Source of the DNA: a candidate division KSB1 bacterium
GTDB lineage: Bacteria; Zhuqueibacterota; Zhuqueibacteria; Residuimicrobiales; Krinioviventaceae
DNA length: 64,000 bases
NCBI GenBank assembly: GCA_034521575.1
Contig: JAXHMJ010000005.1
Coordinates: 2,480,001-2,544,000 of the forward strand
Reading direction: 5' to 3'
The position numbers and the translations under genes are program-made. Positions 15,050 to 50,948 of the stretch are shown here, in pieces (position 1 is the first letter of the stretch; each line of letters begins with the position of its first letter). The notes under the pieces are model-generated. The model had not been told where the DNA came from and ran no database searches. It was given only the letters and a program-made list of their open reading frames with translations.

Positions 15050-18000
15050 TTAGGGTCTGCTTCGGTTTTCATATTCGGGACGCTTCGGCTTGGGAGGAGC
15101 TGATTTCAATTCCTTTAACACATGTTCAACCGCACGTTTCAGTTGTGTGTCAACGCCGTTGGCCAGGGAACTTGGGTTCTCCGGCACGTGAATGTCCGGG
15201 GCCACCCCGTGCCCTTCCAGGAACCAGGTGCCGTCGGGGTTGTACATGCGGAACGTGGGTACAGTAATGAGTCCACCGTCAATCAGGCGGGGCGCGCCGG
15301 TTATTCCAATCAATCCGCCCCAGGTGCGCGTACCGACAAGCTTTCCCAATCCAGCTTTGCGGAAATAATCGGGGAATGCGTCTCCGCCCGAACCGCTCCA
15401 GCCGTTGATTAGCATGGCTTTAGGCCCGAAATGCGCCACCGGCGGCCAGGCCCAGTCTTTGCCGTCGCGTACAGCCCAGTAGGCCATCACGGGACGATCC
15501 AGTAATTCAATAAAGCGATCCGGAATTTGTCCGCCGCTGTTAAAGCGTTCGTCGATAATCAGCCCGTCCAGGTGATGCTGGGCTGCAAATTGGCGCACCA
15601 GTTCACTTTGTCCCTGTGTGCCGGTGTTCGGGACATAGATATAGCCGATTTTTCCGTCGCTTGCTTTTTCGACAAATTGGCGGTTATGCTCAATCCATTC
15701 GAGATGACGCAGACGCGTTTCCGCTTTCATCGGTTCAACGATAACCTTTCGTGCCCCCTCAAAAGTCGGACGGTCATTAACCGTTAACTCGACGGGGTGT
15801 CCCACAGCTCCCTGGAATGCGGCCCAGGGGTCCGTGTCGGTTTTGAGCGTTGAACCGTTTACCGCAAGAATATAATCGCCTTGTTCAACCTGCACACCTG
15901 ATTCGCTCAACGGTGATTTGGTACTAATATCCCAGGGCGCGCCATGGATGATGCGCTTGACGCGGTACGTATCATTGTCAATATCCCAGTCGATACCCAG
16001 ATAGCCCACAGCCGTTTGTTCCGGTTGCGGCTGATCGCCGCCCCATCGATAGGTATGCGATGCGTTCAATTCAGCAATCAACTCACCGATGACATAATTT
16101 ACGTCCCCGCGGGTGACGGCATCATCAAGGAGTTTACCGTACTTTGCCCGCATAGCCGTCCAGTCTACACCGTGCATATTGGGATCGTAGAAAAAGTCTC
16201 TGGACAACCGCCAGGCATCATCAAAGAGCTGCTGCCATTCCTGTTTCGGATCAATGCGGGTTTCCAGCTCTTTTGTCCGCAATGGTTTTTCCAGTTTTTG
16301 ATCGGCTGCTATATCAATGAGATAAAAATTTGATTCATTTTTGATCAAGAGTTTTTTTCGGTCAGCAGTGAGTTGAAAGGCATCTGCATCCTCAACGATG
16401 GTTTTTTCTTCCCGTTCCTCGAGGTCATAGTACATCAGCGGACTGTTGCTGTCATCCGGCATGCCGGTTCTGGGGGTGCGATGAAAAATAATTTTACCGG
16501 AAACCGCCTGCAATCCGGCAAAGTTTCCGTTTTTCACCGGAATGACCACAGCACGCTGTTCCAGGTTTTGCAAATCAATGTCCACGGTTATCGTAGAATC
16601 CTGTTCTTCCTTGTCTTTTTTCGAATCCGACTGAATATCGGTTTCATCATTTCTGGCTTTGAGCGGAGATTCTACATCGGTGCGCAGAGGGGCGGCGACG
16701 ATCGTTGTGGTGTTGGCGTAGAGAAACGAATTGTCGACGTCACCATATATCGGGTCAAAATTGCGATTGGAAAGATAAAAGAGATACTTGCCGTCCGGAT
16801 CAAAAACCGGAGAGTTGTCGCTGTAAAATCCGGATGTGACTTTTACTTTCTGTTTTTTTTGTGTGTCATAAATAAACACAGCGTTGTGTTCATTACCCAG
16901 ACCGCGTGCATAGGCGAACCAGCGGCTGTCCGGTGACCAGTTGACCTGAAAGGTTTCCAGTTCCCCCTGGTATTTCCAGAGTGCCTGATCGACTTTGGTT
17001 GTTTTTCCGGACTCCATGTTGTACATGCGGATGGTCATGGCCTGGTCAATAAACACGAGTTTTTTATTGTCCGGCGCCCAAAACAGATGGTAGCGGAAAC
17101 CGGGACCGTATTTTGTCAGGGTTTCGGGGGCTGATCCGTTTTGGGTATCGTATACTGTGAGCTCATATTCACCGCTTTGGTCACTCCAAAACGCCACTGT
17201 TTTGCCGTCCGGTGACCAGGCTGGAAATCGTTCGGCGCTTCCCGAGGAGCGGGTCAGGTTACGGATCACTCCGTGCTCCGCCGGTACGGAAAAGATATCT
17301 CCTCTGGCTTCAAAAAGAACCCGTTTGCCATCCGGCGCTGTCCAGAAATGCGAGATATGTTTGCTGACATTTTTTATCTTTGGTTTGAGAGTGGAGAGAT
17401 CCGTCACCACCTCAATGTCAACGGGCGAGACCTTTTCAGTTTCGAGATCTAACAGATATATCTTGCCGCCGGCCTCGAAAACAATATCCTGAGGTCCCTG
17501 TTCAGGAAAATGAATATCGTAATCCGAAAAGGTGGTTACCTGGCGGTGGTTCTCGTTTTGCACATCATATGCCCAAATGTTGAAATGTTTTTCCGGTCCG
17601 CGATCGGATAAATAATAGATGGTTTGCCCGCACCACATGGGCTGTGAATCATTGGCGGGATTATCGGTTATTTTTTTTGATTGGTTACGGGTCAGATCAA
17701 AGATCCAGATATCCGGAGCCATGCCGCCTCTGTAGCCTTTCCAGGTGCGGAAATCTCTGGATATGGGAATATAGGCAAGTTTTTTGCCGTCCGGTGAAAA
17801 ACTTGCATCCTCACCGTACGGGATAACCAGTTTATCCGGCAGACCGCCTTGCGGCATCGTTAAATAAAATTGATTATAGCGTTGTCTTTCGCTTTTCATG
17901 CTGGAAGCAAATAGTATTTTGGATCCATCGGCGGTCCAATCGAGCATCCGCTCTGTCATACCGTGATGTGTCACTCGCGTCAGATCGCCTCCTAATGCCG

Positions 18001-18283
18001 GAAGTGTGTAGATATCCGTATTTCCGTCGTAATTGGCGTTAAACGCTATGGATGAGCCGTCCGGTGAAAAGCGGGGAAACTGTTCATTGCCTTTGGGGGA
18101 ACTGAGATGCTGGGCAACCCCGCCGTTTTTGTCAACAATCCAGATGTCACCGGCATATAAAAATGTAATGTGCTGTTCGGATACATCCGGATAGCGCAGC
18201 ATCCGTCCGTCAATCTGAGCGTTAACAGGAAGAAAGTTAAAGAGAGAAAGTAAAAGCGCTGATTGCAGCATACGTCGAATCAT
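15050..18283 (-). CDS. Tricorn-like S41 protease, exported
   Basis: The 1077-residue protein has a signal peptide (ends NFLPVNAQ), two WD/TolB-like beta-propellers (about residues 30-320 and 320-600, with repeated FSPDGK and WSPDGK blades), a C1-like helical part, a PDZ domain (about 760-850, DYILAVNG) and a tail S41 protease domain. The catalytic Ser965 lies in NGWSGSGGDAF and a His743 in ASHTYRW fits the tricorn charge relay. Archaeal tricorn trims proteasome peptides in the cytosol; bacterial versions such as this one with signal peptides act in the periplasm or outside. It is monocistronic and converges on malQ, so a link to glucan use is not implied. Confidence 0.93.
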   Translation of the reverse strand: MIRRMLQSALLLSLFNFLPVNAQIDGRMLRYPDVSEQHITFLYAGDIWIVDKNGGVAQHLSSPKGNEQFPRFSPDGSSIAFNANYDGNTDIYTLPALGGDLTRVTHHGMTERMLDWTADGSKILFASSMKSERQRYNQFYLTMPQGGLPDKLVIPYGEDASFSPDGKKLAYIPISRDFRTWKGYRGGMAPDIWIFDLTRNQSKKITDNPANDSQPMWCGQTIYYLSDRGPEKHFNIWAYDVQNENHRQVTTFSDYDIHFPEQGPQDIVFEAGGKIYLLDLETEKVSPVDIEVVTDLSTLKPKIKNVSKHISHFWTAPDGKRVLFEARGDIFSVPAEHGVIRNLTRSSGSAERFPAWSPDGKTVAFWSDQSGEYELTVYDTQNGSAPETLTKYGPGFRYHLFWAPDNKKLVFIDQAMTIRMYNMESGKTTKVDQALWKYQGELETFQVNWSPDSRWFAYARGLGNEHNAVFIYDTQKKQKVKVTSGFYSDNSPVFDPDGKYLFYLSNRNFDPIYGDVDNSFLYANTTTIVAAPLRTDVESPLKARNDETDIQSDSKKDKEEQDSTITVDIDLQNLEQRAVVIPVKNGNFAGLQAVSGKIIFHRTPRTGMPDDSNSPLMYYDLEEREEKTIVEDADAFQLTADRKKLLIKNESNFYLIDIAADQKLEKPLRTKELETRIDPKQEWQQLFDDAWRLSRDFFYDPNMHGVDWTAMRAKYGKLLDDAVTRGDVNYVIGELIAELNASHTYRWGGDQPQPEQTAVGYLGIDWDIDNDTYRVKRIIHGAPWDISTKSPLSESGVQVEQGDYILAVNGSTLKTDTDPWAAFQGAVGHPVELTVNDRPTFEGARKVIVEPMKAETRLRHLEWIEHNRQFVEKASDGKIGYIYVPNTGTQGQSELVRQFAAQHHLDGLIIDERFNSGGQIPDRFIELLDRPVMAYWAVRDGKDWAWPPVAHFGPKAMLINGWSGSGGDAFPDYFRKAGLGKLVGTRTWGGLIGITGAPRLIDGGLITVPTFRMYNPDGTWFLEGHGVAPDIHVPENPSSLANGVDTQLKRAVEHVLKELKSAPPKPKRPEYENRSRP

Positions 18284-18378: not shown

Positions 18379-19023
18379 TTACAACAGGTTTTGCAAATCG
18401 TCAAGTTTAAGCTTAAGCCGGCGCAGTTTCTGCGAATGGTGTTGTATTTCTTTTTCAAGTGCGTTCAAAGTGGACGCGTGTTCCCGAGTTTTCAGATCCT
18501 GAGACAGACGTAAGGAGGGCAGTGAAAAGAAAAAATATCCAGAGGTTCCGGCCAGCAGTGAAAGAGTGATCGGCCAAAACCAGGAGAACAAAGCAGGGGA
18601 TCGAAATTTTATAAACAGGGTTATAAGGGCAGAGAACAGCAGCACGACAAAACTCACTGTGATGAAAATGCAAAACCGGGAAAGCCGGTGTTGGTTTTTC
18701 AAAAGATTTTCCACTTTGCCCTGGCGCTGCATCAGGTTTAACAGGATTTGCTCGTGGTGCTGTATTTGTTGATCAATTGAATTGAGCGAAACATCCCGCT
18801 TCATGGAGATGATATCACGCAGCACGAGCGCTTTTTCAAAATCGGGATTTTTACGCAGAGCGATACGATTGTAGACTGCCGCCTGCTGGAGGTCTCCTTC
18901 TTTGAGTTTATCCAGAGATTTACGATGATAAATATCTTTGGGCAGCCATTCGTATCGTTCTGCCAGTTTAGATCCCACCCGGGTCGCCGCAGAGATCACG
19001 GCGGAAGAGAATAACGGAATCAT
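18379..19023 (-). CDS. TPR-like membrane protein with paired coiled coils (function unknown)
   Basis: The 214-residue product is not a family I recognise. One TPR-like helix pair (EGDLQQAAVYNRIALRKNPDFEKAL) lies at about residues 40-70. A coiled coil (IDQQIQHHEQILLNLMQRQ) follows, then two membrane helices at about 112-135 and 145-165 and a second coiled coil at the C-terminus (LEKEIQHHSQKLRRLKLKLDDLQ). The heptads IQHHEQ and IQHHSQ are near repeats, so both arms probably pack against each other on the same side of the membrane. Its ATG overlaps the preceding stop (ATGA), so it is translationally coupled and last in the four-gene minus-strand operon that begins with a STAS-HATPase protein. 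Confidence 0.7.
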   Translation of the reverse strand: MIPLFSSAVISAATRVGSKLAERYEWLPKDIYHRKSLDKLKEGDLQQAAVYNRIALRKNPDFEKALVLRDIISMKRDVSLNSIDQQIQHHEQILLNLMQRQGKVENLLKNQHRLSRFCIFITVSFVVLLFSALITLFIKFRSPALFSWFWPITLSLLAGTSGYFFFSLPSLRLSQDLKTREHASTLNALEKEIQHHSQKLRRLKLKLDDLQNLL

Positions 19024-19341
19024 TGTTTATTTAAGAGCCAGAGCGCGTTCCAGGTATTCCACAGCTTTGGATATTTAACGCGCACCTCTTCCCATTCACC
19101 CGGTGTCAAATCGACGGGTTCCTTGCCGGTTGTTTCCAGAACGCCTGCATAGGCCTGTCGAATGCAGATCCCGGTTTGCATGCGCGATCCCCAGGGTGGC
19201 GCCTGCAATCTCCAGAACACCGTCGATAAAGTCCATCCCGGTCGCGCTTTCAAGGCCCCGTTCTACTATAAAACCGGCAATGCCGCCTATCATCCCTCTG
19301 GACGCAGATCGTCGTATTCTATTCATGTTGTTCTTTATCAT
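19020..19341 (-). CDS. Glycine-zipper small protein, frame broken (probable indel)
   Basis: The first frame from ATG 19341 encodes about 52 residues with a glycine-zipper pattern (GMIGGIAGFIVERGLESATG, then GVLEIAGATLG). Homologous-looking sequence continues one base later, in the next frame, as RQAYAGVLETTGKEPVDL and ends at 19020 in the ATGA overlap that couples to the downstream gene. One extra base near 19170-19185 reconciles both into about 107 residues. The overlap at the 3 prime end and the tight start behind the upstream gene argue that one protein is intended. Glycine zippers often insert in or associate with membranes; no specific role can be given. Confidence 0.5.
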
Positions 19342-19546
19342 TTTTTTCCTCTTTCTGTATGGATTGCAATGATTTTTTGATCAATTCATCTTTTTTTTGT
19401 ACGACTTTTGTTAAACGCTTGACTTGCCGCTCAAGTTCACGCAATTTTCGATTTCCGAACAGTTTCCCCCATACTGCTTCCAGAATAATAACAATCGCGA
19501 GTGTAAAAACAACTCCAAATCCGAAACTAAACAATTCGATTTGCAT
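19319..19546 (-). CDS. Small single-pass membrane protein with cytoplasmic coiled coil
   Basis: Seventy-five residues: an N-terminal membrane helix (about residues 5-25, FGFGVVFTLAIVIILEAV), a basic stop (GNRKLRELERQVKRL) and a charged coiled coil to the end (KKDELIKKSLQSIQKEEK). It starts 6 bp after the STAS-HATPase stop and overlaps the next gene by 23 bases, so it belongs to the same operon. I recognise no family. The composition suggests a membrane anchor for a soluble partner, possibly a product of this operon, but that is inference. Confidence 0.6.
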   Translation of the reverse strand: MQIELFSFGFGVVFTLAIVIILEAVWGKLFGNRKLRELERQVKRLTKVVQKKDELIKKSLQSIQKEEKNDKEQHE

Positions 19547-19552
19547 AATAGT

Positions 19553-20434
19553 TTACTGTTTTGGTAAATATTTGATCATGACCAATTGATTACCATAGAG
19601 TGAGTTGCGAATATAATCCACTTTATCCATAGCACGGCGTATGATGTGCAGTCCCATTCCACCGCCCCGGCTCTTGGACGCCGCTTCGGTTATGTTGAAT
19701 TCCGAAGCTTGTTCAGCATCAAATCCTTTTCCGTGATCCACAATGCTGATTTTGAGCATATCCTCCGCTTCATCGACGGCTACCTGGATTTTTGAATAGG
19801 GTGCGCCGCGCCGCGCGTGCTCAATGGCATTCAGGCAGGCCTCGTAAACTGCAATGTTGATGCGGCTGAGGTCGCCTTTGTTAAACCCCATCTCTTTTGC
19901 GTGTACGGCAACGAAATCGCAAGCTTTATACAGAGCGCTGTGCTCATAGGGAATGTCAATTACGCGATGCCTTTTAATTTCAGAGCTCGGGAGATTGGGA
20001 TGTTCTTTTTGCGTGTCTTTTGTCTGTAGGGGCGATTCTGCAGGGGGGGGTACAGTTCGCGCTGCATGCGGCAGATGGGTTTCGAGCGCTTGAATCAGTT
20101 TTTCCTCATCCGGTGCAATTGACAGATAATCCGCCGGGTTAAATTCAGAAAGCGCTGACCTAAAAGTGCGCCCGGCGTTGACAATATAAAGATCGCCTCC
20201 CATTCTGCGGAGGGTTCCGGTGAGTTCGCACAGGAGAGCGGTGATTGCATCCGTCAGTGTGTCATTGAATCCGAAATCAATGATAAACGTATTGCTCTCT
20301 TTGCTATGGGTTTTTATTTTGTTGTAGAGAGATTGAATGAACTCGGTGTCCGAATCGATTCGGGTCGGGATTAGTTTTATGATTTCACCCTTTGGGCCCA
20401 TTCGTTGTATCTGGATCGTATCTTTTTTTACCAT
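19553..20434 (-). CDS. STAS domain fused to RsbW-like HATPase (anti-sigma/anti-anti-sigma type regulator)
   Basis: The N-terminal part (about residues 1-115) has the STAS layout (NTFIIDFGFNDTLTDAITALL, LRRMGGDLYIVNAG) of anti-sigma factor antagonists. A Pro-rich linker (about 118-155) joins an RsbW/SpoIIAB-type GHKL ATPase: N box EACLNAIEHA, G1 box DHGKGF and G2 box GGGMGLHIIRR. In partner-switching systems these two modules are normally separate proteins: the kinase phosphorylates the STAS protein and releases a sigma factor. Fusion suggests intramolecular control. A run of eight C in the linker codons is a possible slippage site. First gene of the minus-strand operon; no sigma factor is seen nearby. 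Confidence 0.82.
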   Translation of the reverse strand: MVKKDTIQIQRMGPKGEIIKLIPTRIDSDTEFIQSLYNKIKTHSKESNTFIIDFGFNDTLTDAITALLCELTGTLRRMGGDLYIVNAGRTFRSALSEFNPADYLSIAPDEEKLIQALETHLPHAARTVPPPAESPLQTKDTQKEHPNLPSSEIKRHRVIDIPYEHSALYKACDFVAVHAKEMGFNKGDLSRINIAVYEACLNAIEHARRGAPYSKIQVAVDEAEDMLKISIVDHGKGFDAEQASEFNITEAASKSRGGGMGLHIIRRAMDKVDYIRNSLYGNQLVMIKYLPKQ

Positions 20435-38794: not shown

Positions 38795-39862
38795 ATGCGG
38801 TTTATTGGTATTTTAGGCTTGTTGGCTTTTGTATTGATCGCTTATGCGTTTTCCACAAACCGCAAGGCGGTCAAGTTACGGATTATCCTGTGGGGTATGG
38901 GGCTGCAGATTCTGTTTGCATTCATTATTCTCAGTGAAACATTTTTGTCCTGGGCGGGGATGGGTGTGTTTGGCATCCTGCTTCTGTTTTATTTATTCTC
39001 GGACAAACTTTTGGCAAAACCCAAATGGACGGACAGTCTGATACCCGGCCTAACTGCTGCGCTGATCGCCGTGGCGGTCGCCGGACTTTCTTATTGGCTC
39101 TATCCTGTAGGCATCACCTCTGTTGTCTTTTATCTCAGCCTGTTTGCCTGGGTTGTGGCCATACTGATGAAAAAACCGGGATGGGTTCGTTATCTGTTTG
39201 CTGTATTGATGTTCACCGGTCTTGGTTTGCTTATGAGCCGCGGTGTATACGGCTATATGATTTTTGACAAACTTGCCGACGGTGTGGATCGCTTTTTAAA
39301 ACTGGCGGATCTGGGGAGTACGTTTTTGTTTGGGAATCTGGCAAAACAGGAACATTTTTCCGGGACCGATACCTGGCCCGGATTTGGATATCAGTTTGCA
39401 TTCTCTGTTCTTCCGGTTATCATCTTTTTTTCCGCCTGCATGTCCATTTTGTATTATTTGGGAATCATTCAGCGAGTGATCAATGTGATGGCGCATTTTA
39501 TGCGCTGGACCCTGGGAACCTCAGGTGCGGAAACCCTGTCCTGTACGTCTAATATATTTGTCGGACAAACCGAAGCCCCTCTGCTGATCAAACCTTTTCT
39601 GGAAAACATGACAAAATCCGAGCTGCATGCTATTATGACCGGTGGATTTGCAACCATTGCGGGGAGCGTCTTGGGCGGCTATATTCGTATGGGGATTGAT
39701 CCTCAACATCTCATTGCCGCCAGTGTATTGTCCGCTCCTGCAGCCTTGGTAATGGCCAAAATCTGGATGCCCGAGACCGAGCAATCCGAGACCGCCGGAG
39801 ATGTGCAAGTGCCGGATGTCGGACGTGCCGATAATTTATTGGATGCCGCCTCCCAGGGGTGA
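38795..39862 (+). CDS. nupC: Concentrative nucleoside transporter, 5 prime part (frame-split)
   Basis: ATG 38795 follows CGGAGG. The N-terminal helices and the core with GTSGAETLSCTSNIFVGQTEAPLLIKPFL (residues about 236-265) are CNT/NupC family motifs that bind sodium and nucleoside. The frame stops at 39862 in a shared GGGGTGA context; the family homology goes on one base shifted. One extra G in the GGGG run at about 39856-39859 restores NLLDAASQGVTDGLKLALNVG. It imports nucleosides with sodium or proton for the neighbouring salvage enzymes. Confidence 0.75.
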   Translation: MRFIGILGLLAFVLIAYAFSTNRKAVKLRIILWGMGLQILFAFIILSETFLSWAGMGVFGILLLFYLFSDKLLAKPKWTDSLIPGLTAALIAVAVAGLSYWLYPVGITSVVFYLSLFAWVVAILMKKPGWVRYLFAVLMFTGLGLLMSRGVYGYMIFDKLADGVDRFLKLADLGSTFLFGNLAKQEHFSGTDTWPGFGYQFAFSVLPVIIFFSACMSILYYLGIIQRVINVMAHFMRWTLGTSGAETLSCTSNIFVGQTEAPLLIKPFLENMTKSELHAIMTGGFATIAGSVLGGYIRMGIDPQHLIAASVLSAPAALVMAKIWMPETEQSETAGDVQVPDVGRADNLLDAASQG

Positions 39863-40395
39863 CTGACGGCCTGAAACTTGCCTTGAACGTCGGGGCCATG
39901 CTGCTGGCATTTATTGCATTGATCGGTCTGGTGGATATCGCTATGGGATGGATGGACAAGCTGGTGGATCACCGGCTGCTGGGCGGCGCTTTGAATCCCG
40001 CAAAGCAGGAATACAATGGTGTTTTCCCGGGAAGTCTCAAAACGTTGTTTGGTACACTGTTCTCTCCCCTTGCTTTTTTAATGGGTGTGCCGTGGAAAGA
40101 TGCCATGGACGTGGGGAATTTGCTCGGGATTAAAATTGCTGTGAATGAATTTGTGGGATACGCCGAGCTGGCCAAACATGTGGCCGCACAGGACCTGTCT
40201 CCGCGCTCGCTGACCATAGCTACGTATGCCTTGTGCGGATTCGCCAATTTTTCCTCGATCGGCATTCAGATCGGTGGTATCAGCGCGTTAGCTCCCGGAA
40301 GACGTTCTGATCTTTCCCGGCTGGCGATGCGCGCCATGTTTGCAGGCGCGTTTGCATCATGGATGACCGCCACCATTGCCGGTATTGTACTTTGA
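39859..40395 (+). CDS. nupC: Concentrative nucleoside transporter, 3 prime part
   Basis: The 178-codon frame completes NupC: GVDI-like LVDIAMGWM, then FSPLAFLMGVPWKDAMDVGNLLGIKIAVNEFVGY and CGFANFSSIGIQIGGISALAPGRR, the family C-terminal gate motifs. It overlaps the upstream stop by 4 bases, and its GTG start is not independently supported. It is most likely the same protein as the previous entry, separated by a one-base error. Confidence 0.75.
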   Translation: MTDGLKLALNVGAMLLAFIALIGLVDIAMGWMDKLVDHRLLGGALNPAKQEYNGVFPGSLKTLFGTLFSPLAFLMGVPWKDAMDVGNLLGIKIAVNEFVGYAELAKHVAAQDLSPRSLTIATYALCGFANFSSIGIQIGGISALAPGRRSDLSRLAMRAMFAGAFASWMTATIAGIVL

Positions 40396-43290: not shown

Positions 43291-44300
<1,010 letters not shown>

Positions 44301-46714: not shown

Positions 46715-47623
46715 ATGAAACATGTGAACAGACGTCATTTCCTGAAAGAGACTGCGGCGGCAGGGGCTGCACTTTCTCTGCTCTCGGCATCACCTGCCGT
46801 TTTTGCCCAATCCCGGTCTGATATAGTGGTTGTCAAGAATGCTTCGCCTGTAGAACTGGTCAGAACCGCTGTCGAAAAGTTAGGTGGCATGCAGAGGTTT
46901 GTGAAAAAAGGCGATCAGGTTTTGCTTAAACCCAATATCGCCTGGGACCGAAGTCCGGAGCAAGCCGCTACAACCAATCCGGAGGCTGTGGCAGAAGTTG
47001 TGAAAATGTGCCGGGAGGCCGGTGCAAAAAATGTACTGGTTTTGGATCGAACCTGTAATCAGGCGCGACGTTGCTACCGAAACAGTCAGATTGAAAAAGC
47101 GGCCAAAGAAGCGGGCGCCACAGTGCGTCACGTCATTGATGCGCGTTTCGAAAAAATGGACATTCCGCAGGGTGAATATGTGAATTCCTGGGATGTGTAT
47201 CGGGATGTAATGGATTCCGATGTGATGATCAATATGCCGATTGCCAAAACGCACGGTATTTCTACGCTGACCCTGGGAATGAAAAACCTTATGGGTGTTT
47301 TGGGCGGCAATCGCGGAGGACTACACCGTAATTTTCATGAAAAAATTGTGGATATCAATACGGCTATCGTTCCTGATTTGACCATTATAGATGCTTATCG
47401 AATTTTAACAGCGAACGGACCTTCCGGTGGGAATCTGGAAGATGTAAAATTGACAAAAACTGTCATTGCCGGTACCAATACCGTGTCTGTTGACGCCTGT
47501 GCCACAGGACTGTTTGGTCTCAAACCAACAGATATCGGATTCCTGGTCACTGCTCATGAGCGCGGTATGGGGGAAATCGATTTGAATAAACTGGCAATCG
47601 AAACTGTTGATCTTTCTGCTTAA
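46715..47623 (+). CDS. DUF362 protein with Tat signal
   Basis: A twin-arginine signal (NRRHFLKETAAAG, ends SPAVFAQ) precedes a DUF362 domain: KNASPVELVRTAVEKLGGM, KPNIAWDRSPEQAATTNPEAVAEVVKMC, PIAKTHGISTLTLGMKNLMGVLG and VDACATGLFGL. Family members often carry Fe-S clusters or are beside ferredoxins; few Cys (CREAG, RTCNQARRCYRN) are present here. The 302-residue length is normal. It is exported folded. It is followed 67 bp later by a polyferredoxin, so a redox partnership is likely (inference). Confidence 0.84.
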   Translation: MKHVNRRHFLKETAAAGAALSLLSASPAVFAQSRSDIVVVKNASPVELVRTAVEKLGGMQRFVKKGDQVLLKPNIAWDRSPEQAATTNPEAVAEVVKMCREAGAKNVLVLDRTCNQARRCYRNSQIEKAAKEAGATVRHVIDARFEKMDIPQGEYVNSWDVYRDVMDSDVMINMPIAKTHGISTLTLGMKNLMGVLGGNRGGLHRNFHEKIVDINTAIVPDLTIIDAYRILTANGPSGGNLEDVKLTKTVIAGTNTVSVDACATGLFGLKPTDIGFLVTAHERGMGEIDLNKLAIETVDLSA

Positions 47624-47628
47624 ACAGA

Positions 47629-47658
47629 CAGCCGGCGTTACAGCCGGCTGCATTTTTT
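47629..47658 (+). terminator. Terminator between DUF362 and polyferredoxin genes
   Basis: CAGCCGGC pairs with GCCGGCTG around GTTACA, followed by CATTTTTTA. Five bases after the DUF362 stop. Confidence 0.75.
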
Positions 47659-47689
47659 ATCTGCCATCTAAGCTGGGAGTGTTTTATCC

Positions 47690-49210
47690 ATGAGAACGGC
47701 CCGTAGAATTTCACAAGTTTTCTTTTTATTGTTTTTTCTCTTTTTGTTTTTTCAAGCGCGTTATCCCTATGAGACAGCTCTTTCTTCTGATTTGTTTTTA
47801 CGCGCCAGCCCTCTTGTAGCTTTTTCCACCTTTTTGGCCTCCCGATCGCTGGCTTCCAGCATGTTCATTGCATTGGGTTTGCTTTTGCTTACCATTCCTT
47901 TGGGACGTTTTTTTTGCGGATGGATCTGTCCGCTCGGTACCACCATTGATGCAACGGACAAGATGTTTAAACGGAAACATAAAAAGCCTGCCACACGTTT
48001 TCGTTCCTGGAAATTCTTTATTCTTGCATTTGTTCTGGCGGCATCCGTGTTTTCAGTTCAGCTCATCTGGTTTTTTGATCCCATTGCATTGTTTACGCGA
48101 ACGATGACAACCGTGATCTATCCGGCATTTTCTTTTGTGTTGTTTGGTCTATTCAACACCTTGTTCAGCTGGGGTGTGCTGGAAAACGCGGTTTATACAA
48201 CGTTTGATTTTGCTCAACGTACGGTTTTGCCCTTTGAACAACCCTTGTTCTACCAATCTCTGGGCGTGTTTGCGGTATTCGTGGTGATTATTGGTCTTGG
48301 TGTTGTGAGCCGCCGGTTTTGGTGCCGCAATCTGTGCCCTTTGGGCGCATTGCTGGGACTTTTTTCCAAGTGGAGACTGACGCAGCGTTATGTTTCCCAA
48401 GCCTGTACGCATTGCAGTCAGTGCCAAAAAAGCTGCCGCATGAATGCCATTGAAGATGATTACACAATCAACAATACGGTAGAGTGTATTGAATGTGCGG
48501 ATTGTGTCGCGGTTTGTCCGCCCAATGCGGTTTCTTATCGATTCGGTAAAAATCCCGGACTCAATGAGATAGATTTCAGCAAACGGCATTTTCTTCAGGC
48601 CGGCGCAGCCGGTCTTGCCGGGGTTGCGGTGGTTAAAACCGCTCAGGCTGATGTCTATAATAAAGGCAAGGCAATCCGTCCTCCCGGAGCGATTGAAGAA
48701 AACAGGTTTCTCGACAAATGTATACGCTGCGAAGAATGCGTAAAAATCTGTGCATCCACCGGCGGCTGCCTGCAGCCTGCTTTGCTGGAAACCGGCTGGG
48801 AAGGCATGTGGACACCCGTTTCTGTTCCCCGGAAGGGATACTGTGAATTTAATTGTAATATGTGTGGTCAGGTTTGTCCGACCGGAGCGATCCAGGAACT
48901 GGCCCTGGAAAAAAAGAAAACAATCAAACTGGGTCAGGCCTATTTCGACAAAAGCCGGTGTATCCCCTGGTACAGCCAGGAAGACTGTCTGGTATGCGAA
49001 GAACACTGTCCGGTTTCGGATAAGGCGATCAAGTTTGATGAACGGGATACGGTCGGCCCGGACGGAAGCCCGAGAACTGTGAAATTTCCATACCTTGAGG
49101 AAAATTTATGTATTGGCTGCGGCATCTGCGAAAACAAATGTCCGGTTGTCGGCAAACCGGGAATTTTTGTAACCGCCTCGGGCAATCAGCGAGTTCAATT
49201 TAAAGGATAA
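47690..49210 (+). CDS. Fused NapH-type/NapG-type polyferredoxin membrane protein
   Basis: The N-terminal half (about residues 1-220) has four or five membrane helices and the NapH CxxxCP motifs FFCGWICPLGTTID and WCRNLCPLGALL. Two 4Fe-4S cassettes follow (CTHCSQCQKSCRMNAI and CIECADCVAVCPPNAV). Then an internal Tat-like sequence (SKRHFLQAGAAGLAGVAVVKT, about residues 294-315) leads to a NapG/MauM-like ferredoxin half with CIRCEECVKIC, CNMCGQVCPTGAI, CLVCEEHCP and CIGCGICENKCP. Electrons would pass from quinol via the membrane part to an outside cluster domain. Fusion of the two normally separate subunits is unusual. Likely partner: DUF362 protein upstream. Confidence 0.86.
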   Translation: MRTARRISQVFFLLFFLFLFFQARYPYETALSSDLFLRASPLVAFSTFLASRSLASSMFIALGLLLLTIPLGRFFCGWICPLGTTIDATDKMFKRKHKKPATRFRSWKFFILAFVLAASVFSVQLIWFFDPIALFTRTMTTVIYPAFSFVLFGLFNTLFSWGVLENAVYTTFDFAQRTVLPFEQPLFYQSLGVFAVFVVIIGLGVVSRRFWCRNLCPLGALLGLFSKWRLTQRYVSQACTHCSQCQKSCRMNAIEDDYTINNTVECIECADCVAVCPPNAVSYRFGKNPGLNEIDFSKRHFLQAGAAGLAGVAVVKTAQADVYNKGKAIRPPGAIEENRFLDKCIRCEECVKICASTGGCLQPALLETGWEGMWTPVSVPRKGYCEFNCNMCGQVCPTGAIQELALEKKKTIKLGQAYFDKSRCIPWYSQEDCLVCEEHCPVSDKAIKFDERDTVGPDGSPRTVKFPYLEENLCIGCGICENKCPVVGKPGIFVTASGNQRVQFKG

Positions 49211-49214
49211 TCAC

Positions 49215-50948
49215 GTGTTCCCTTTCCTGTACAGGCAAATAGAAAATCTTGTTTCATTTGTCTCGCCCAAAAAGCAGGAAGAAAAGGATCAGTGTGCATT
49301 TCCGTACGCACAAAAGCCCTGGTTTTCCCAATACGCGGCCGGAGTCCCAAAGTCTATCGAGATACCGAATCTCACATTGACTGATATATTTGATCAGGCC
49401 GTCCGGTCGAATCCGCAAAACGATGCGGTTGTCTACTTTGGGCGCAGATTGACCTTTGAGCAGCTTCAGGACTATGTTCTTCGGGCGGCGTTTAGTTTTG
49501 ATGACTGGGGTGTTGTAAAACGCGATCGAATTGCCTTGATTATGCCCAACATTCCGCAATTTTTAATTTGCTACTGGGCCTTGCTCAGGCTGGGTGCGGT
49601 TGCGGTGCCTATTAATCCGTTTTTGGCGCCAGACGAGATCCGGCAGCAGCTTAAGATCAGCGGTTCCCGTATCGTGATTGTGTTCGACCGGGTGTCTTAC
49701 AAACTACAGGCTTCCTCGCTGCAAAGAGTGATCAAGGTATGTGCCGGATCCTATATGCCGTTTTTCCCCAAGACAGTATACAAGGTTCGCAAGAAATTCA
49801 TGCCCGGCGCGGCAACCGCCCGGCTGCGGGTTCCCATCAACGCCTTTCGTCGATTTCTGAAACAGCGTCGATTGGAGTATTCTACACCCGTTAATCCTGA
49901 TGATGCCGCGGTTATGCTGTTTACAGGGGGTGTAACCGGTATCCCCAAAGGGGTCATGTTGACTCATAAAAACCTGGTGGCCAATACGCTTCAATGTCAG
50001 GCCTGGGTGGCGGATATTCAAACAGCCCGGGAAAAAGTGCTGGGGGTGCTTCCGTTTTTTCACAGTTACGGATTATCCGCTTGTCTGCATCTTTCGATAT
50101 TTATCCGGAGCACCTTGCTGCTGGTTCCGAAATTCAGTACCGGTAAAATCATCGATTTGATCAACAAATATGAAATATCGATTTTCCCCGGTGTTCCTAC
50201 CATGTATTCCAATATTGTCAGACGCTTATCCCTGTCCCATGTTTCGATACATCCGGTGCGGATCAGCATCAGCGGCGGTGCTCCCCTGTCTTATGAAATC
50301 CAGAACGAATTCGAAACCCTGACGGGCGGGCGTCTTGTGGAAGGCTACGGATTGACCGAAGCGTCGCCGATCACCCATTGCAATCCCCTGGACGGTACGG
50401 CACGGCCTCAAAGTATCGGCCTGCCCTATCCCAATACAGAGGCCAGAATTACCCGGCCTGAGAGCAATACCTGTGTTCCAGTGGGTGAGGTCGGTGAACT
50501 GCAGGTTCGGGGGCCGCAAGTCATGCCGGGATACTGGAATGCCGCAAAGGAAACCGAGCATATCATGACCGCGGATGGATGGATGCGCACCGGAGATCTG
50601 GCGAAAATGGATCAGGATGGGTTTTTTTATATTGTTGATCGTCTCAAGGATGTCATCTTGTTTGGCGGTTTTAATGTATATCCGTCCGAAGTGGAGCGGG
50701 TATTAAACCAACACCCCCATATACAAGAAAGTGCAGTTGTTGGTGAACCCGACCCGGTGTATGGTGAAATCGTCAGTGCTTTTGTGATCCCGGTCCAGGG
50801 CAAAGTCACTTTGAGTCAAGTCAAACTTTTTCTTAACGATAAACTGGCGCGATATAAAATGCCGCGCAAGCTGACCTGTGTGGATCAACTCCCGAGAAAT
50901 TTTATCGGTAAAATCCTGCGTCGTCATTTAATACAGAATGAAACCTGA
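49215..50948 (+). CDS. Fatty-acyl-CoA ligase (AMP-binding)
   Basis: GTG 49215 is the start, after AAAGGATAATCAC. The ANL superfamily motifs are LFTGGVTGIPKGVMLTH (P-loop-like, residues about 235-250), GYGLTEASPITHCNP, WMRTGDLAKMDQDGFFYIVDRLKDVI and PRNFIGKILRR with the catalytic Lys. It ligates a fatty or aromatic acid to CoA via an acyl-AMP. A basic-to-neutral N-terminus and 577 residues match long-chain ligases. It follows the polyferredoxin by 4 bp and is followed by an MFS permease that begins 28 bp later. Confidence 0.92.
   Translation: MFPFLYRQIENLVSFVSPKKQEEKDQCAFPYAQKPWFSQYAAGVPKSIEIPNLTLTDIFDQAVRSNPQNDAVVYFGRRLTFEQLQDYVLRAAFSFDDWGVVKRDRIALIMPNIPQFLICYWALLRLGAVAVPINPFLAPDEIRQQLKISGSRIVIVFDRVSYKLQASSLQRVIKVCAGSYMPFFPKTVYKVRKKFMPGAATARLRVPINAFRRFLKQRRLEYSTPVNPDDAAVMLFTGGVTGIPKGVMLTHKNLVANTLQCQAWVADIQTAREKVLGVLPFFHSYGLSACLHLSIFIRSTLLLVPKFSTGKIIDLINKYEISIFPGVPTMYSNIVRRLSLSHVSIHPVRISISGGAPLSYEIQNEFETLTGGRLVEGYGLTEASPITHCNPLDGTARPQSIGLPYPNTEARITRPESNTCVPVGEVGELQVRGPQVMPGYWNAAKETEHIMTADGWMRTGDLAKMDQDGFFYIVDRLKDVILFGGFNVYPSEVERVLNQHPHIQESAVVGEPDPVYGEIVSAFVIPVQGKVTLSQVKLFLNDKLARYKMPRKLTCVDQLPRNFIGKILRRHLIQNET

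Follow-up and report, generated by a model that had tools for sequence, protein, structure and literature searches.

HATP, a STAS-GHKL kinase gene co-inherited with three small-protein genes in candidate division KSB1: a probable membrane stress switch

CapK and VapK are STAS-GHKL kinases (PMC13373217). According to the excerpted account of these proteins, the substrate of CapK is a separate STAS protein, VapK has been proposed to work likewise, and the ligand that activates CapK is predicted to bind between its STAS and GHKL domains (PMC13373217). Rv1364c, in the excerpts of its description, is a sensor-PP2C-kinase-STAS fusion that autophosphorylates its own STAS domain (PMC7693655). Here, we describe a locus that encodes a STAS-GHKL protein, termed HATP, together with three small proteins, termed cc2, gz3, and cc4 (jointly, the trio). 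A literature search, judged mostly from result entries, found no published description of this four-gene operon.

The window, i.e., the whole stretch of DNA that was analyzed, comprises 64 kb of a 5.26-Mb, five-contig candidate division KSB1 genome. All four genes lie on its minus strand. HATP (20434-19553) encodes 293 amino acids (aa) with a STAS domain (residues about 1 to 125) and an RsbW/SpoIIAB-type GHKL ATPase/kinase domain (about 165 to 290). It is followed by cc2 (19546-19319; 75 aa), with one transmembrane (TM) segment and a cytoplasmic basic coiled-coil tail; gz3 (19341-19027; ~105 aa), which is glycine rich and helical, has a near-invariant C terminus, and is interrupted by two frame changes in this assembly; and cc4 (19023-18379; 214 aa), with a TPR-like head, a coiled coil, and a TM hairpin. 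A preceding sequence-only reading had placed four genes at 18379-20434 in this order, and both coordinates and order proved correct. The start of cc2 lies 6 nt past the end of HATP, and that of gz3 (19341) lies inside cc2, giving a 23-nt overlap. At all eight loci measured, neighboring genes overlapped or were separated by at most 26 nt, some of the overlaps being a product of choosing the longest start. The four genes are closely packed and are inherited together as one set. A promoter/terminator scan returned 8 and 8 sites compared to 4.7 and 3.2 expected and was given no weight. A Tricorn-like S41 protease gene (15050-18283) is found on the same strand 95 nt past cc4; other genes occupy that spot in the mapped relatives.

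Among 82 genomes of the phylum, gz3 and cc2 were each found in 13 and cc4 was found in 16; the three extra cc4 matches (E values of 6e-5 to 5e-4, covering part of the profile) look like coil similarity. The 13 genomes are common to all three genes, the order HATP-cc2-gz3-cc4 was observed in 13/13 (with the set split across two contig ends in genome G017), and neither cc2 nor gz3 occurred on its own in any of the 82 genomes. Conservation of the set and its order in related genomes, which the sequence-only reading had named as a check, was thus borne out, the genes being conserved together in all 13. These genomes fall in four families (f1, f3, f4, and f9), so the trio also occurs outside the order to which the window belongs. 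Pairwise identity over eight genome pairs, a range that leaves out the near pair G055/G035, was 59 to 79% for gz3, 35 to 68% for cc2, 33 to 54% for HATP, and 24 to 36% for cc4. Because the same gene order recurs across 13 genomes from four families, among which cc4 identity falls to as little as 24%, the four-gene set is real and more than chance. The most conserved of the four is gz3, about level with the zinc peptidase described below (60 to 79% in pairs in which both genomes have one); judging by sequence, this is a conservation as would be expected for a core contact protein. The last ~35 residues of gz3 are nearly invariant in relatives (L057 to L064), like a docking motif. A search of genome contigs for gz3 with two peptide patterns yielded 8 loci, which fit contigs already known from the phylum search; as it relies on two patterns, a search of this kind could miss distant gz3 relatives outside KSB1, and the two f9 genomes are absent from these 8. 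One contig, JAACEJ010000199.1 (L060), is labeled Actinomycetota, yet corresponds to the contig that carries the operon in a genome from the same family as the window and is probably mislabeled.

The gz3 reading frame of the window changes from 0 to 1 and back to 0, near positions 19164 and 19067, and the 81-aa open reading frame (ORF) read there is therefore truncated; the full product has ~105 aa and measures 100 to 103 aa in relatives, where the gene is intact. The GAPDH gene of the window (43291-44276) matches its relatives in three successive frames, and similar frame breaks were found in the GrpE, DnaJ, and HtrA genes of the same genome, about 48 kb from the operon. As such breaks also affect conserved housekeeping genes of this assembly and gz3 is intact in relatives, the frame changes are likely an assembly error (indels). 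Programmed frameshifting was rejected as the principal explanation on the strength of the similar changes in these four genes. At 38795-40395, adjoining same-strand ORFs of 355 and 178 aa resemble one transporter split in two, perhaps by another assembly indel.

The C-terminal domain of HATP matched HATPase_c_2 in Pfam at 8.6e-26. A profile search of the PDB returned RsbW at 1.2e-21 as well as SpoIIAB, and these two are the closest relatives of the HATPase domain. PF01740 (STAS) was matched by 12/13 members of the HATP family at E values of ≤0.1 (best, 5e-6); the HATP of the window on its own remained below the Pfam cutoff, and a PDB profile search with the STAS region alone returned no STAS structure. 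The STAS-HATPase fusion proposed from the sequence therefore stands for its HATPase domain, whereas its STAS part holds at the level of the family only. Residue conservation was assessed in 24 fused, distinct HATP proteins of at least 230 aa (E values of ≤1e-20) among script-called ORFs from 52 fetched loci plus the window; the set includes two near-identical members (L017 and L018) and leaves out truncated or uncalled proteins (e.g., those of G009, G016, G018, G027, G030, and G044). The ATP-site residues E, N, D, G, and GGxG (E/N box, D-x-G, GGxG) were kept in 24/24 proteins. In the STAS loop ([DSN]-S-[STA]-G), the Gly was present in 0/24 and the phosphoserine Ser in 3/24, while both loop residues were kept in 8/8 of the remaining STAS domains in the window's genome. 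HATP is not a self-contained partner switch, because its ATP site is intact but its STAS loop lacks the Gly and mostly lacks the phosphoserine; given the loss of this loop, the fused STAS domain is unlikely to be the substrate of its own kinase. The kinase domain could instead act as an ATPase or as a plain anti-sigma clamp. STAS residues R76, R77, F98, and L104 (window numbering) are invariant in a 22-row family alignment (A4, with one duplicate and a trimmed L057 row that has hand-derived coordinates and represents the same gene as L015) despite the lost phospho-loop. They possibly form a ligand or docking surface.

By its architecture, HATP resembles CapK and VapK, which act (or, for VapK, are proposed to act) in trans; here, too, STAS is N-terminal to GHKL in one chain. 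Set against the excerpted account of those kinases, several differences are apparent. CapK has an N-terminal HTH, whereas HATP gave neither an HTH nor a PP2C match in Pfam at E values of ≤1. A STAS substrate gene with a conserved Ser/Thr adjoins CapK and VapK, whereas none of the eight STAS matches of the genome lies in the window. The neighbors of CapK are immune genes and that of VapK is a PIN-domain toxin, whereas HATP is accompanied by three unnamed small proteins and, in relatives, by envelope proteases. A further trait of the CapK/VapK type is activation by single-stranded DNA. With RsbV/RsbW and SpoIIAA/SpoIIAB, HATP shares the kinase fold family and the ATP-site residues; however, its STAS domain is fused and has no phosphoserine loop, and its operon has no sigma or PP2C gene. 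Rv1364c, as far as its excerpted description goes, likewise carries kinase and STAS on one polypeptide, but HATP has no sensor or PP2C domain, its STAS is N-terminal, and the phosphorylation site is absent (PMC7693655).

The three small proteins had been judged to lie outside recognized families, and this assessment was upheld: none of them matched at a curated Pfam cutoff, and representatives yielded only weak matches when searched against NCBIfam, PADLOC, and PDB sequences. Their description as membrane-type clearly applies to two of them. The Kyte-Doolittle maximum was 2.4 to 3.0 in 9/9 members of cc2, in which basic residues follow the TM segment, and 1.9 to 3.0 in 9/9 members of cc4, which has a hydrophobic N terminus and a TM hairpin. 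The weakly hydrophobic gz3 was borderline (1.1 to 1.4 in 7/7 members) and, on this sequence property, may be soluble. An AlphaFold model of cc4 (mean pLDDT, 87) displays an N-terminal hydrophobic helix, a TPR-like head, and a long antiparallel coiled coil with the TM hairpin at its tip. Against a consensus TPR, Foldseek aligned about 50 columns of this model with a probability of 0.99 and an rmsd of 0.6, but with an E value of 1.3; no Pfam TPR passed the cutoff in cc4, and a Foldseek search with the fold gave 0 matches at E values of ≤0.001. VIA-align Z scores reached 11.1, mostly for long helix hairpins (e.g., the p85 coil), a level that helical models reach by chance. The gz3 model (pLDDT, 57) was too poor for a structure search. 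An anti-phage system was rejected, as PADLOC gave one chance-level match (gz3 to Cas12a at an E value of 0.035). A phage or plasmid origin was likewise rejected: nothing was returned by a blastn search of phages with the operon, a tblastn search of plasmids with gz3, or a cc2 scan of viral contigs.

A link that the sequence-only reading did not contain emerged from the neighborhood of HATP in relatives. The fullest array comprises DUF362, polyferredoxin, an AMP-binding enzyme, HATP, cc2, gz3, cc4, DUF2914 and/or a small membrane protein that we take to be PGPGW-like, Zn_peptidase_2 (a membrane zinc peptidase), GrpE, DnaJ, HtrA, a presumably FmdB-like protein, and DnaK; GrpE, DnaJ, and DnaK are often part of the array. 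Downstream of HATP and on the same strand, Zn_peptidase_2 was found at 18, HtrA at 19, and DnaJ at 13 of 23 mapped loci. These loci were chosen by us; 10 have the trio, some are short, one runs under a script label standing for G029, and G000, G001, and G017 were left out. Three of the four loci that lack HtrA (G006, G021, and G024) have only 1.5 to 2.0 kb of downstream sequence. HATP without the trio is widespread in the phylum, and the trio is absent from most KSB1 genomes, some of which have HATP beside the same proteases. The array thus does not need the trio, and HATP is older than its association with it. In the window's genome, the array is split. The DUF362, polyferredoxin, and AMP-binding genes (46715..50948, plus strand; 40 to 61% identity by tblastn), which lie directly upstream of HATP in relatives, are about 26 kb from HATP, and the stretch from Zn_peptidase_2 to a gene that we assume to be ClpB-like is about 48 kb off on the opposite side; the four genes stay together in between. 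A DUF2914 search in this genome gave no match, and the control had no match anywhere either.

Candidate partners of HATP were sought in the same genome, which is 96% complete. No SigB/F/G-type sigma factor passed the NCBIfam cutoff, which was passed in 1/14 control genomes; the best match scored 112 bits compared to a cutoff of 234, and the others were partial. No sigma gene was recognized beside HATP in the loci read, for which part of the neighbors was searched. The designation of HATP as a partner-switch regulator therefore finds no support in its literal sense: its STAS domain has no phosphoacceptor loop, no sigma-B/F/G passes the cutoff in the genome, and the operon showed no gene for a sigma factor, a PP2C, or a free STAS protein. 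Elsewhere in the genome, there are 8 STAS and 12 SpoIIE-type matches (some of the latter fragments), none of them within the window, and these could close the signaling loop. At L102 (G000, C5:380000-397000), a cluster of PP2C, RsbW-like, and STAS genes looks like an ordinary partner switch. Direct binding of a sigma factor by HATP, as a clamp without a phosphorelay, would agree with the kinship of its HATPase domain to RsbW and SpoIIAB and with a STAS loop that is not a phosphoacceptor. The trio would then pull HATP off under stress, and STAS would be a built-in dimer or lock domain. We regard this as unlikely, however, given the results of the two sigma searches.

The neighborhood lends itself to another explanation, in which the trio would be a proteostasis machine that acts as a scaffold and passes membrane substrates on to the zinc peptidase or HtrA, with HATP only coregulated or providing ATP-driven remodeling. 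The array with Zn_peptidase_2, HtrA, DnaJ, and DnaK and the TPR-like head of cc4 speak for it. In excerpts from a study of Bacillus subtilis, a yugP htrC double mutant showed slower spore germination, a remote precedent for joint action by proteases of these two kinds (PMC13393411). However, the trio always lies directly behind HATP, not behind the proteases, and stays with HATP where the array is split; we therefore consider a proteostasis machine rather doubtful. The same TPR-like head enters into a comparison with LapA and LapB. These proteins are regulators of a membrane protease and control lipid or envelope synthesis, and cc2 could be a LapA relative with cc4 as its LapB-like TPR partner in such control. 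Like LapA (PF06305), cc2 is a small membrane protein with a cytoplasmic coil, and that of the window matched LapA_dom at an E value of 0.0043. This match reached 17.4 bits, however, against a PF06305 cutoff of 28; 3/9 cc2 members matched at E values of ≤1, unrelated coil families score similarly, and cc2 has one TM segment, which makes this relationship very improbable. Least credible of all is that the four genes hitchhike in gene order with no shared function: the data are all genomic and the genomes are related, but cc2 and gz3 never occur alone in the 82 genomes and the block remains whole where the array is split.

We tentatively favor, at less than even confidence, the reading that HATP and the trio form a GHKL kinase module, tethered to the membrane, that deals with protein-quality stress in the envelope. 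For it, we count that the four genes are together in the window's genome although the old array is split; against it, that the operon contains no substrate STAS or sigma gene, that no SigB/F/G-type factor passes the cutoff in the genome, and that the four genes of the window lie away from the chaperone array. The protease and chaperone neighbors suggest that either the signal or the output is folding stress in the envelope. In such a module, cc2 (as the anchor, with its cytoplasmic coil) and cc4 (with its TM hairpin and TPR-like head) would make up a membrane scaffold joined by gz3. This scaffold would dock the STAS domain of HATP, which by analogy with CapK/VapK would be the input site, so that the kinase would be switched on or off by the state of the envelope. 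HATP might then target, in trans, another of the STAS proteins encoded by the genome, and this protein could in turn affect genes such as those of HtrA and chaperones; in lineages without the trio, HATP would be used without this membrane input.

Since the three small-protein genes always co-occur and mostly adjoin protein-quality-control genes, the trio and HATP are probably a membrane stress switch that has so far not been described. It is possible, if somewhat doubtful, that they are a new envelope-stress complex in which the STAS domain of a STAS-GHKL kinase is a docking or sensor module plugged into cc2-gz3-cc4, reporting membrane or envelope protein folding to protease and chaperone expression. 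We regard the four-gene set as a putative new form of STAS-GHKL signaling with three unnamed partner families. The degenerate STAS domain beside an intact kinase leads to a sharp claim, i.e., that STAS would be the input and not the substrate. If true, a partner-switch kinase would be wired to the membrane via dedicated small proteins, which would add three unnamed protein families and offer an initial entry point into how KSB1 bacteria control envelope stress.
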